Positions 27,906 to 63,366 of a DNA stretch of 64,000 nt are shown here, piece by piece. The notes beneath the pieces were generated by a model, which saw nothing but the letters and a program-made list of their open reading frames with translations, was not told the origin of the DNA and did no database searches. The DNA is taken from NCBI GenBank assembly GCA_012295275.1, contig CM022665.1, positions 4,609,167 to 4,673,166 on the forward strand, in the 5' to 3' direction. Positions within the stretch are counted from its first letter, which is position 1. Each line of letters opens with the position of its first letter. Position numbers and translations under genes: made by a program. The DNA comes from Chrysomallon squamiferum (lineage: Eukaryota > Mollusca > Gastropoda > Neomphalida > Peltospiridae).

Positions 27906-29150
27906 TTACTCCATTTCATTCAGTTCTCTGACCATTCGCTCGAACTCGTTAGTTGTTATCTTGGCGTTTCCTAGTAACAGAAATTGTAAAACAATAATAG
28001 TAGTAATAATACCAGCAACATATAACATTTTTATTAATAGATAAAATTTAAATTTTACATAAAAAATAGTAGTACTAATAGTAATCATAGAAGTTGTAGT
28101 AGTAAAATTAGCAATAGTAGTAGTAATAGTAATAAGAAATTCCACAAAGATTTCGAACGACCTGTCGCTAAATAGTGGTAAGATAACTTCTTTTCCCACT
28201 TCGTACTCTGCAAATTCTTTACTAAGCCTTTAATTTTACTTTACTTCTAACGAGAAATTTTATCTTGTATTAAAGTTAGTTTTTCTATTGTGGCATTTTT
28301 ATTTTTGTCAAACAATATTTGAATGATGTTTTACTGTTATTATTACTATCTTTATTTTGATTGAATTATTCTTTACCATCCTCGTCAACAAGTTCCAAGA
28401 AATTTTCAGCGTCTCGTTCACTCATTATTTTCTCTAGTTCCTGCTTGTCGAGGATTCCGTCCATGTTGGTGTCAAGCTCCGAAACGTCTGAAATAAATAC
28501 GTTATTAACTAAAAACTGATGAAGTTCCAAAATTTGGACATAGATATCCAAACACATATACCAAAATCTATTTTAGATCGCGAATTAAACTCAATAGAGA
28601 ACATACATTATTTTGATTTAAATCGAGGTAGTGAACACCATATGTGAAAAACAAGGAAAATATTAAACATGAATAAATCATTACGCACATTTATATCAAC
28701 CCCTCCTCCAAATATATAAATCATTACATATATTTATATCATAAACATTATTTTTCATTTTCATTTTAAAAATATTCTTCAATCGGAAAGTGTCTAAGTA
28801 CAGATATTTCTTGTATTACCCAAAGTTTTGTAAGGTAAATGCAACATTTTTAAAAATCGACACCTTTCTCACTCTTACACTTTTAACAAAACTGTCTGGA
28901 CAACAAAGGTTAAACGTGTTTTATTCAGTTTTAACCAAGGCGAATCCAAAACCGAATTTTAATTCCTACCTCGTTTTCCGGCAGCTATTGCCAGTGCTGC
29001 TGCTTTTTTAATAGCCCAGCTTGCAGCAGCGCGTTTAGCAAAGTCTCTCACTCGTCTCCAGCGAATTCTGACACGAAATCTTGGCCAAGCGTCGCCCTGA
29101 TTTAGAACAGCGAACACTACCAACAGTACAAGAAGAATAGCAACTCTCAT
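27906..29150 (-). CDS. Gene A: type I cationic peptide precursor with EF-hand prodomain
   Basis: Spliced CDS 29150-28970, 28487-28377, 27970-27906; 118 residues. The signal peptide is residues 1-21 (ends GDA), followed by a mature cationic peptide 22-57 starting WPRFRVRIRWRRVRDF, then Gly58-Lys59-Arg60 as amidation plus convertase site. The prodomain 61-118 is strongly acidic and holds two EF-hand loops: DTNMDGILDKQE (66-77) and DEDGNAKITTNE (95-106), the second split across the exon 3/4 junction. No cysteine. An internal Lys-Arg (39-40) could split the mature part in two. All introns have GT-AG ends, both internal junctions are phase 1, and ATG follows the acceptor directly. A secreted, amidated membrane-active defence peptide is the best guess; function is inferred from sequence character, not from a recognised family. 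It forms a head-to-head pair with gene B. Confidence 0.8.
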
Positions 29151-29457
29151 CTATAACAAACAGACAAAACATTTAAATTAAGACAATATCAACTAAATCG
29201 GCTGAATAGCAATTGTAGTACTTTTATAGATGTTGCACTTTCAAACATTTAATTCAAAATTAAAATGAAAGAATTAAAATTAATAACGATAGGAAAACGT
29301 TCGCGCACATTTTGAAAATTACTGTAATATTAATATAAATTATAAATTATATTGCACTATTAACTGCACGCATTAAACTTGGAGTGTTCAATATTAGAAG
29401 AATAAATCGAAAATACACTAAATACTAGGTTTCAGACAAATGAGCTTTAAGGCTTAC

Positions 29458-29495
29458 CTTTCAATCGTAAATCGGTCTGTCGAGGATTGAATGAA
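29458..29495 (-). other. Noncoding 5' exon of gene A
   Basis: A strong donor (AAG|GTAAGCC, exon end 29458) lies about 65 bases downstream of the TATA box. The sequence, with TTCATTCAATCCTCGACAG at its core, is conserved with genes B and C. The start is placed about 30 bases after the TATA and is approximate. Confidence 0.6.
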
Positions 29496-29520
29496 TAACT
29501 TGTCTCCTGAAGTCAGTTAC

Positions 29521-29625
29521 TTTATACTAAACTGGTGTTTTTGTTTTCACTTAAATGAGCGATACAGTGTGAAAACGTATTAAAACAGCAGATCCTGTTG
29601 AAGCAATCTGTTGCTGAATGGAATT
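29521..29625 (-). promoter_or_regulatory. Promoter of gene A: TATA box plus conserved purine element
   Basis: TATAAA on the minus strand at 29526-29521. Just upstream is GTGAAAACAAAAACACC (29550-29534), conserved with genes B, C, D and F. It resembles GAAA-type immune response (IRF/ISRE-like) or forkhead sites. Further upstream, CAGATCCTGTTGAAGCAAT is also conserved. Factor identity is inference. Confidence 0.6.
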
Positions 29626-30896
29626 CAGTGATACTCAGAAAATAAACAAAAAATCTCATTACTGGAGGCGAGATTGTGTAATCTAATCTCAAAATAATTA
29701 ATGCAGTTAATGATACATATTACACTCGAATCGAAATTTATTATTTTTTTCTCGATTTATCTTAATTTATTTATTATTGTCATTATTATGTTGTTGTTTT
29801 ATTTTGTTGCATTTTAATATTAATTTGACTGTCAACGGTGTTTTTCTTTGTTGTTTTGGTTTTTTTCTCGATAATTATGTCAGTACCTGTTAGAGAAGTT
29901 GCATAATTAAGAAGGATTTTTATATTTTGCGTGTACGCGCGTGAGTGTTTTTAATAGAAAGTGTTGGGCAGGGACTTTTCCGATGTTTAATATTATATCT
30001 AACATTGTTTATGTGAAATTCCCGCTCTTAATCTCTTTCTGGCTCGTAGAACACTAAACACTAATTGCTGTGTGCGACAGTCTGTTTTCTAAAGTGTACA
30101 CAAGGGATCCCTTGCTAACGAAAAGAGTAAATCAACCATTACTTAAAGACTATTGATGTCACCCTGTGACTGCATTTTAAATTTATAACAAGTGCACAAC
30201 TTAATAGAAACGTTTTTTCAAACCTTAAGTTTTGAATATTTAAATAACACAATATATACCTGACAGAATTTTGTTTCGCAATATTTGTTGTTTAACCTTT
30301 TGTTGGGGGGGCGGATAACAAAATTATTGATTTTTTTTTATTTAGAAACAAGATTTGGGATATACGAATGGACTATGATAAGAATAACAAAGATTTTCAG
30401 CTATATAAATATGCACACGATGTACTTTTAATGTATTTTTTTTTTTTGGTTTTCTTAGGTCGGATCGTTACTTAATTACTCAAATCTGTTTTACAATCCT
30501 TCAAAACTGACACGAAGATACTGACAGTCGTAAATATAATTTAACGCTTTGTTTACATTCAATGAAAATGCTTACATCTTCTTGCAACATATGTCGAAGC
30601 TGTACTACATGCTGTTACCAGTTATTATGAAGAGACAGATATGATACTTACGGACTTGAATTGTTAACAGAACTACAAAATAATAGGTTCAGAACATTTT
30701 TAAATCATTGCCAACAACCTCTTCACTTGGAATATCTCAAATAATATGTTTATAGATACTTAATCTGCTTGTGTGTCTGGGAATGTATGTATTTGTGTGA
30801 ATGCTCGAGAGAGTATGCTTGTGTCTGTATGTCTATATGTGTGTGAGTGTGTGTGTGTGTGTGTCTGTGTGTGTAATATATATACACAAGAGACAT

Positions 30897-30990
30897 AGAG
30901 AGAGAGAGAGAGAGAGAGAGAGAGAGAGAGAGAGAGAGAGAGAGAGAGAGAGAGAGAGAGAGAGAGAGAGAGAGAGAGAGAGAGAGAGAG
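30897..30990. repeat. (GA)n microsatellite
   Basis: About 94 bases of uninterrupted GA dinucleotide. Confidence 0.95.
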
Positions 30991-31458
30991 ATTAATATTA
31001 TAGAACGTAACTTTTTCTTACCTTGTTATGAATCACTGATAAACAGACATAGCCGATGAAAACAGGATGTTTATCATATAAAACTGATAAATATATTTAT
31101 GACATGAAACATACACAGATACACTTTTTCAAATGAACTGAGACAGAATACCTGCAAGAGATAAAACGTAGGAACAAATTTACATGGTTTTAGGATATTC
31201 AGATGGCCAAAATATTTATTTCAAACTTTTTCATGTTTATCTGCTAAATTACTTAAAATTATGACAGATGATTTCCTCAGTATTACTTCGACTCTTATAT
31301 ATAATTTGTGAATATGCTGGCCGACATTTTCTATTAAACCCACCCAAACTCACACAGCCAAACGCAAACATACAATGCTTTTTAATAATCTAATTTCTGC
31401 AATAGCAACTAAAACAATTCTCAAGAAAGAATATGTATGTATGTATGTATGTTTGTAT

Positions 31459-62071: not shown

Positions 62072-62129
62072 TATATTTTTTTTTTTATTTCTTTTTATTT
62101 CTTTATTTATTTATTTTTATTTTCTTTTT

Positions 62130-62270
62130 ATGATATATTGCAGTATTATCCAAATGTTTGTTCTGTACATTATGTCATGATATAACATCAGCATTCGGAC
62201 TACTACCAATATTTCCAGGTGATTTCAGTTTGTTACGGTTTAAAATGCATGATCTGTACTACTACGACAT
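62130..62270 (+). mobile_element. Short reverse transcriptase fragment
   Basis: GTTCTGTACATTATGTCATG through GTACTACTACGACAT matches the 5' part of the 54.1 kb fragment (DI-SAFGLLP, LLRFKMHDLYYYD), then jumps at the shared ACATTATG/TGTGTGACTGTACC-like junction to another copy of the promoter-relic upstream block. Confidence 0.55.
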
Positions 62271-62274
62271 TATG

Positions 62275-62560
62275 TTTGTATGACTGTACCGGTAACATGA
62301 TCCAATCTATAACACGATATCATATCATACTGCATTAACACAGCATCAACTTAAAATGCATGATTTACTACGACATTATGTTTGTATGACTGTACCGGTA
62401 ACATGATCCAATCTATAACACGATATCATATCATACTGCATTAACACAGCATCAACTTATCATCACAATGATAAGTTTTACACTTTGTCGCTAATTTAAA
62501 TGAATTTAAATATACCATGTTATAATAGTATAAGGTAACTGACTACATTATCAATTTTAA
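62275..62560 (+). repeat. Promoter-relic block, partly duplicated
   Basis: About 105 bases (GACTGTACCGGTAACATGAT to CACAGCATCAACTTA) occur twice in tandem at about 62280-62355 and 62385-62460, followed by a decayed relic promoter (TTTTACACTTTGTCGCTAA, AGTATAAGGTAACTGACT) ending near 62545. Confidence 0.5.
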
Positions 62561-62694
62561 ACACAGAAAAAAATACGAAATAAACAAAAAATATAACTTT
62601 AGTGGGTTTCTTTTATATTTCTTTAATATTGTAATAGTAATAATAGTCGTTGTGTTAGCCGTAGCATTAACAGTAATGTTATTAGATAATTTTT

Positions 62695-62767
62695 AATAGT
62701 AGTAGTAGCAATGGTAGTAGTAGTAGCAGTAGTAGTAGTAGTAGTAGTAGTAGTAGTAGTAGTAGTA
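62695..62767. repeat. (TAG)n microsatellite
   Basis: TAG trinucleotide run with a few interruptions, part of the TAG-rich block that follows each divergent promoter relic. Confidence 0.9.
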
Positions 62768-63221
62768 AAAAAAGGAAGATATATTTTACTGAAACCAGGA
62801 CTAAATTTTTTTCATTTCTTTTTTCTTTTTCTTATTACTTTAAATCTATGATATATTGTCTTACATACGTAGCACAAATCAATAATAATAATCAAACAAA
62901 CAAACAAACAAAATAAAATAAAATAAAATAAAAATTGGCAATTTATTTGCTAACATTTTTTGAAATTTTACTCATTTTAACAGTTCTAAGCTACCATAGA
63001 ATTATTAGTTATTATTTCGTTTTATACTGAGAAATCGGGATATTGTTTATTTATTTCTCAGATTGTTGCTGTTGCTGTTTACTATTGTCCATTATTAGTA
63101 TTATTTAAAAGTAAAAGAAATAATTTATTTATATGGCAAATTCAAGACAGCTGTCAGATAAATGCTTAATACTAAACATTATTTAAAAAGAATGGAACCT
63201 AAACCTGATTCCCATTCATTC

Positions 63222-63366
63222 CTCGCTTTCCCTTAACTGCTGCTGTCGCTATTTTCCCGTCTCTTCTAGCAACCTCTCTGACTTGTCTCCAAGAAGTAAA
63301 CCAAGCGTCGCTCTGATTTAGAACAACGAACACAACCACTAGCACAAGAAGAAAACCAATTCTCAT
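63222..63366 (-). pseudogene. Copy H: orphan type II signal/mature cassette with dead splice donor
   Basis: Minus strand ATG at 63366. Signal peptide MRIGFLLVLVVVF..SDA (1-21). Mature peptide 22-45 begins WFTSWRQVREVARRDG and ends TAAVK, then Gly-Lys-Arg. The reading frame is clean, but the donor is GAG|GAATGAATGG where gene D has GAG|GTATGAATGG, and no EF exon follows: similarity to D's intron ends near 63140 and other repeat sequence begins. The 5' noncoding exon and promoter are also absent; the sequence departs from D's intron 1 near 63530. If transcribed, read-through would add seven residues and stop at 63199. Probably a pseudogene, although a minimal precursor is conceivable. Confidence 0.7.

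Follow-up and report, generated by a model that had tools for sequence, protein, structure and literature searches.

A tandemly expanded family of predicted secreted cationic peptide precursors with EF-hand tails in the gastropod Chrysomallon squamiferum

We analyzed a 64,000-nucleotide stretch of the genome of the gastropod Chrysomallon squamiferum (the window; C1:4609167-4673166, where C1 is contig CM022665.1 of assembly GCA_012295275.1, 404.6 Mb in 22 contigs), which carries a cluster of genes for predicted secreted cationic peptides. When all six frames of the 64-kb window were searched for an EF-hand loop pattern, six matches were found, at loci A, B, C, D, F and G, and none elsewhere. 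Precursors of this family share one order: signal peptide, cationic mature peptide of 17-37 amino acids that mostly begins with Trp, Gly-Lys-Arg (GKR), and an EF-hand region of about 58 amino acids. For A, B, C, D and G, this order, with a Cys-free peptide and an acidic EF-hand region, had been proposed from the letters alone (hereafter the sequence-only reading) and was re-derived here from the raw sequence, which supports each element: the signal-like start, the cationic Cys-free peptide, the cleavage and amidation signal and the acidic EF-hand propiece. The hydrophobic signal-like stretch at the start of each locus is about 21 residues long, as judged by eye.

Three coding exons make up each gene: one for signal peptide, mature peptide and GKR, one for the first EF-hand loop (EF1), and a short one that completes the second loop and ends in a stop (EF2). 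Locus A lies on the reverse strand at window positions 27906..29150 (signal/mature exon 29150-28970, EF1 exon 28487-28377, EF2 exon with the stop 27970-27906), and its mature peptide, WPRFRVRIRWRRVRDFAKRAAASWAIKKAAALAIAA, is predicted to be amidated. Loci B (32243..33366; exons 32243-32423, 32873-32983 and 33302-33366; mature peptide WPRFRIRIRWRRVRDFAKRAAASWAIKKAAALAVAA) and C (38732..39757; exons 38732-38912, 39252-39362 and 39693-39757) are on the forward strand. Locus D is again on the reverse strand (44794..45875; exons 45875-45722, 45298-45188 and 44858-44794) and encodes WFTTWRRVRETASRVGAAAAAVGAVASLF, with a charge of only about +4, as is locus G (59685..60712; exons 60712-60565, 60151-60041 and 59749-59685), which encodes WPRFRIKIRWRRVIYILKRIPRANS. 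Locus F, on the forward strand (56048..57135; exons 56048-56195, 56573-56683 and 57071-57135), has the stop that the sequence-only reading placed in its acidic part, a TAA inside the EF1 exon, and is a pseudogene or a truncated form. Its second intron contains a perfect TTA array of 56 copies (169 bp, 56878-57046). In all six loci AG stands directly before the ATG of the signal exon, as the scan demanded, GKR is followed by a G/GT donor, the EF1 exon has an AG/AC acceptor and a G/GT donor, the EF2 exon has an AG acceptor, a stop codon is present, and both introns are in phase 1. The splice signals of the three coding exons of A, B, C, D and G are thus intact, as had been claimed.

The family is larger than the six window loci. 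When a B-type precursor was searched against the genome, 93 exon matches were found at E ≤ 0.001, and a hand count gave about 59 loci with an EF1 exon; genome counts of this kind are lower bounds. On C1, 33 EF1-exon loci lie at 4.53-4.73 Mb, three at 4.46-4.48 Mb, three at 5.41-5.43 Mb and five at 39.28-39.31 Mb; ten others are on C7, four on C14 and one on C6, and there are four weaker matches beyond these. Gene models were drawn from the 213-kb main cluster (window included; N over 2.5 kb) and from smaller stretches elsewhere, namely C1:4.455-4.485 Mb (30 kb), C1:39.29 Mb (7 kb), and parts of C14 (20 kb) and C7 (10 kb). The scan, which required AG/ATG and a basic pair before G/GT, yielded 36 signal/mature exons in these pieces. 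The loop pattern found an EF1 exon for 34 of them, and 30 (F included) have an EF2 exon as well. These counts bear out the family nature of the loci, which are members of a tandemly expanded family of predicted molluscan secreted peptide precursors. On C14 (3.893-3.897 Mb), two signal exons, at C14:3893457 and 3896368, are identical over 21 residues and each adjoins an EF1 exon; their mature parts were missed by the gene-model scan.

The acidic tail is recognizable as an EF-hand region. A composite A/B-type query, consisting of the first two coding exons of B and a last exon as found in A and C (which differs from that of B at one residue), matched Pfam EF-hand_1 in two stretches (E = 3e-8, 33.1 bits, cut-off 25.4), and the G precursor scored just above the cut-off (25.6 bits). 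In the PDB, calmodulin and EF-hand Ca2+ proteins gave weak sequence matches (E 0.002-0.03). Two EF-hand loops had been read in each tail; the first is canonical in all six window loci, but the second only in A, B and C, where both end ligands, D1 and E12, are retained, while D, F and G have SEDG...D. The loop-1 ligands D1, N/D3, D5, D/N9 and E12 are all kept in 38 of the 40 EF1 exons obtained by whole-exon tblastn without the loop pattern, the two exceptions being a decayed exon (C1:4598615) and the truncated exon of relic E (described below). In a first test on 18 distinct EF1 exons, ligand columns were more often identical than the other columns (0.96 vs 0.69, P = 0.001), but these exons came from a pattern that fixes or restricts loop places 1, 3, 5, 6 and 12. 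The test was therefore repeated without the pattern on 19 distinct near-complete exons, with a weaker result (0.95 vs 0.76, permutation P = 0.025). Among 11 hand-picked divergent paralogues, the invariant or nearly invariant columns are D6, N8, D10, G11, D14 and E17, together with E19 and R25. In the EF1 exon at C1:4725873, D replaces Gly at loop place 6.

Mature peptide and tail carry opposite charges. In 35 of the 36 models the charge of the mature part lies between about +3 and about +12, the tail has a net charge of about -10 to -16, and the precursor without its signal peptide comes to about -4 to +2 in 28 of the 34 models with a tail. Mature and tail charges are negatively correlated (Pearson -0.48, n = 24 distinct proteins, uncorrected for relatedness), which lends modest support to charge matching between the two parts. 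Cys is absent from the mature part in 35 of the 36 models (one Cys in the remaining one), and Gly precedes the basic residues in 31. The tail might then be an electrostatic neutralizer only, with an inherited EF-hand pattern in which Ca2+ plays no part. This is the main rival to a Ca2+-dependent tail, and it would agree with the charge correlation, with a second loop that is non-canonical in 26 of 30 models while the tail charge is maintained, and with the myticalin acidic tail, described in the available source text without mention of an EF-hand. However, the retention of the loop-1 ligands beyond other columns is more than mere charge would need, and we consider plain neutralization a possible but rather doubtful account.

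Tails of this kind also carry other types of cationic peptide. In a sister cluster of Pro/Arg-rich type, the locus C1:5413075 encodes MKLVLVLLLLSVVALHETNG-IWRRFRWPRFPRLPRIPRLPRFPRWPRIPGRWPGPIGMPPRPMLK followed by GR and a tail in which both loops are canonical; its basic site is LKGR instead of GKR, its tail scores just above the cut-off of Pfam EF-hand_5, and the two TAA counted in its match are both located behind its donor. Of its sister loci, the match at C1:5424152 stops at residue 43 with TGA, and that at C1:5433868 starts at residue 10 with TGA and TAA counted. The C6 locus encodes WRIRRAWRRAKSYVKYYALTH-GKR, keeps the end ligands of both tail loops and is over the Pfam cut-off. Additional Trp/Arg-rich mature types are found at C1:39.29 Mb and on C7.

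We then estimated the ratio of nonsynonymous to synonymous substitution rates (dN/dS) by the Nei-Gojobori method, pooled over pairs with a codon bootstrap; the pairs share ancestry, so that intervals are rough, and since the genes were found with the loop pattern, the EF1 value may be somewhat too low. For 11 intact window-side genes, dN/dS is 0.57 in the signal part, 0.82 in the mature part (95% interval, 0.50-1.37), 0.26 in EF1 (0.11-0.62) and 0.54 in EF2, and EF1 equals or exceeds the mature part in 0.4% of the codon bootstraps. We read the tail exons as protein under constraint; only for the window-side genes is it clear that the mature part changes faster. These results also bear on whether the EF exons are joined to the signal exon at all. 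If the first intron were retained, a short precursor would end soon after GKR, and the unspliced frame of A, B and C does end after GKRGRN. Yet the read-through end is not conserved, varying from 2 to about 40 residues past the basic pair among the models, and the EF exons keep frame and phase with dN/dS below 1; intron retention as the source of the main product is thus very improbable and was set aside.

The window also holds several damaged copies. Relic E (52636..53127, reverse strand) retains an EF1 exon truncated on its 5′ side (53127-53038) and an EF2 exon (52698-52636), and no signal exon was found upstream on its strand as far as 54800. Relic H (63223..63366, reverse strand) is a signal, mature and GKR exon (at 63366) with GA for the GT donor, and no EF exon was found between it and locus G. 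There are also a lone EF2-like exon (GNSKIKAQDFERMVRKLNKIE; 43029..43094, reverse strand) and two decayed copies with weak matches, one on the reverse strand with signal, mature (stop inside) and EF2-like pieces (25303..25833; E 0.01 to 0.23) and one on the forward strand with mature-like and EF1-like segments (34436..34872; E 0.015 to 0.74).

The tandem expansion with relics is relevant to what the peptides do. Gly-Lys-Arg is the classic neuropeptide amidation signal of textbooks, and the peptides could be amidated signaling products, with the EF-hand tail as a sorting device. Host defence is the better fit, however, to the expansion and its relics, to the rapid evolution of the mature part in window-side genes, and to charges near +10, Arg/Trp-rich sequences and a Pro/Arg-rich sister class, so that we regard the signaling role as improbable.

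The best explanation, to which we give about an even chance, is that the acidic, Ca2+-folded tail silences a basic antimicrobial peptide until convertase cleavage. Lys-Arg sites are cut by furin or proprotein convertase-type enzymes, carboxypeptidase trims the basic residues, and the exposed Gly is converted to a C-terminal amide. Loop 1, and loop 2 where it is canonical, would bind Ca2+ in the Ca2+-rich secretory pathway, and the tail would fold into a small acidic EF-hand unit that holds the basic peptide in cis, sparing the membranes of the producing cell. Cleavage at Lys-Arg, five residues ahead of the first Ca2+ ligand, would then release the peptide, which is presumably antimicrobial. 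In all 34 models the basic pair stands five residues ahead of the first ligand (the pattern permitted 1-8). In a normal EF-hand the entering helix is about ten residues long; cleavage would hence take place inside this helix and may thereby be Ca2+-dependent. Melittin and similar basic amphipathic peptides are bound by calmodulin-like units, which makes a clamp in cis plausible. The tail may serve as neutralizer, chaperone or calcium sensor, the roles suggested in the sequence-only reading; expression, antimicrobial activity and Ca2+ binding of the family are what we infer from these predicted proteins.

A number of observations weigh against this explanation, in addition to the pattern dependence of the first loop test. 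The two loops are seven residues closer than in the aligned Entamoeba Ca2+-binding protein, so that the fold may differ from a standard EF-hand pair. The 12-residue loop 2 has decayed, being canonical at both ends in only four of 30 models; in the rest, the last place is D in seven, the loop lacks one residue in four and the first place is G, S or N in 15. The D precursor (17.8 bits) and the C1:4.46 Mb type are below the Pfam cut-offs. Helix amphipathicity, measured as the hydrophobic moment, is no higher in A-C than in shuffled sequence (P = 0.47-0.58), which speaks against the clamp in particular, as do loop spacing and loop 2 decay, although it is above shuffled in four other models, from C1:4.46/4.48, C1:39.29 and C7:6383530 (P = 0.005-0.03). 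AlphaFold returned only a low-confidence helix for the signal/mature exon alignment (predicted local distance difference test score 64). Some mature parts are weakly charged: that of C1:4571853 has a charge of +0.7, one Cys and DKR for GKR, and the C14 type has +2.8. Finally, the difference between EF1 and mature part seen on the window side is not clear in the upstream cluster or over all genes. Among 14 upstream genes, dN/dS is 0.28 (signal), 0.38 (mature), 0.36 (EF1) and 0.17 (EF2), and EF1 equals or exceeds the mature part in 46% of draws; among all 28 distinct genes, the values are 0.24, 0.45, 0.27 and 0.24, respectively, with 8.8% of draws.

The silencing explanation can be carried further, to a Ca2+-switched clamp in which a secreted half-calmodulin holds a basic Trp-containing peptide in cis, shields the Lys-Arg site inside its own entering helix and releases the peptide on Ca2+, pH or convertase. 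Such a tail could be a general molluscan carrier whose weapons are exchanged exon by exon (RFRIRIRW-type, helical, Pro/Arg-rich and the Cys-rich mytimycins of mussels). We put this forward tentatively and think it unlikely as a whole.

Other features of the window and the genome were recorded alongside. At window positions 9500-16455 a 1.3-kb unit is repeated in tandem about five times, at intervals of about 1.30, 1.71, 1.30 and 1.31 kb, with 300-nucleotide families 84-98% alike, and at 62260-62459 a 106-bp unit is present in 1.9 perfect copies. One further piece (L028, 7945-8865, reverse strand) has an intronless open frame of 307 amino acids, which resembles a shorter frame near C1:4.464 Mb; it had been taken by eye for an ATP-grasp protein, but Pfam gave no such match and nothing convincing. 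A satellite repeat that is GC-richer (45%) than the AT-rich rest makes up the beginning of C1 as well as the first 1500 bases of both C21 and C22, and no telomere repeat was seen in the four contig pieces examined. A search of the genome for COX1 gave no match. At C6:24.88-24.95 Mb lies a cluster of 27 matches to the molluscan haemocyanin beta-sandwich domain, one of them in an open frame of 1903 amino acids. Two haemocyanin functional units, used as queries, had no matches other than to known haemocyanin chains (14 sequences for each unit at E ≤ 1e-50); the best displayed unit alignments, not every chain being displayed unit by unit, are to chain 3j32 (432 and 606 bits), which we take to be an abalone protein. 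The haemocyanin genes bear out the molluscan origin of the DNA, and since mytilid mussels, to our knowledge, have no haemocyanin, a mytilid source is improbable.

How does the family relate to known peptides? The sequence-only reading knew of no described family with this domain order, which does not hold: in the mussel (Mytilida) antifungal peptide mytimycin, as far as the available text of the two papers goes, an anionic C-terminal extension with an EF-hand directly follows a dibasic site (PMC8004829; PMC3210125), and the meaning of the EF-hand is called unknown (PMC8004829). Both families have a cationic mature peptide, a dibasic site, an anionic EF-hand extension and many variants (PMC8004829). 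Among our precursors, the A/B, G, C6 and Pro/Arg types carry an EF-hand over a Pfam cut-off behind the dibasic site; the D and C1:4.46 Mb types do not. The first exon of mytimycin is non-coding, and the AG directly before the ATG in our models would agree with such a layout. The mature peptide of mytimycin is Cys-rich, unlike the nearly Cys-free peptides here, and amidation is unmentioned in the available text (PMC8004829), whereas the precursors here carry the Gly-Lys-Arg amidation signal. For the mytimycin tail, a role in the innate immune response has been speculated (same text, PMC8004829). The tail of our precursors could likewise be a second secreted product, since it is under constraint, would be freed by the same cut and bears no sequence sign of degradation. 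The cut leaves just five residues before the first Ca2+ ligand, however, and a separate tail function is without support, so that a second product seems slightly more improbable still than a signaling role.

Similarly, the myticalins and modiocalins have a Cys-free Arg-rich mature peptide, a dibasic site, often with Gly for a C-terminal amide, and an anionic extension, and they form a large family with a very variable mature part (PMC5577615; PMC12294457, as far as their available text goes). One of their introns immediately precedes the ATG and a phase-1 intron follows the cleavage site (same sources). The models here may have the same layout: an acceptor-like AG stands before the ATG in all 36, as the scan demanded, and phase-1 donors and acceptors are present. 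In myticalins the extension starts at the end of one exon and is completed on a single further one, as against two further exons here, and the signal-peptide consensus differs, as judged by eye. An EF-hand is unmentioned in PMC5577615 and PMC12294457, and the contrast to the Pfam-supported EF-hand tail here rests on those texts. The octopus peptide octominin, the design of which is based on the molluscan cDNA of Octopus minor defense protein 3, is likewise cationic and linear; its available text mentions no EF-hand, signal peptide or precursor, and it is set apart by that description (PMC7024321).

An acidic EF-hand unit together with a basic Trp-containing peptide also recalls calmodulin-type EF-hand proteins, of which the melittin-calmodulin complex is a familiar case of an EF-hand protein binding a basic amphipathic peptide. 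The match to a calmodulin loop is weak, and here both parts are on a single, apparently secreted chain with a shorter loop spacing.

Taken together, the family combines a mytimycin-type tail with peptides in the style of the myticalins, whose exon layout it also appears largely to follow, and as far as the texts describe these, it shows neither set of features completely. Among the search results viewed in the open-access PubMed Central (PMC) literature, this domain order was described only for mytimycin and the combination was not described outside mussels; EF-hand propieces on host-defence peptides came to light there only in the mussel mytimycins. Their presence in a haemocyanin-bearing mollusc, on very different linear peptides including Pro/Arg-rich ones, would turn an oddity of mussels into a possible general carrier, and the many natural pairs of tail and peptide in this family are suited to tests of a Ca2+-controlled pro-form.

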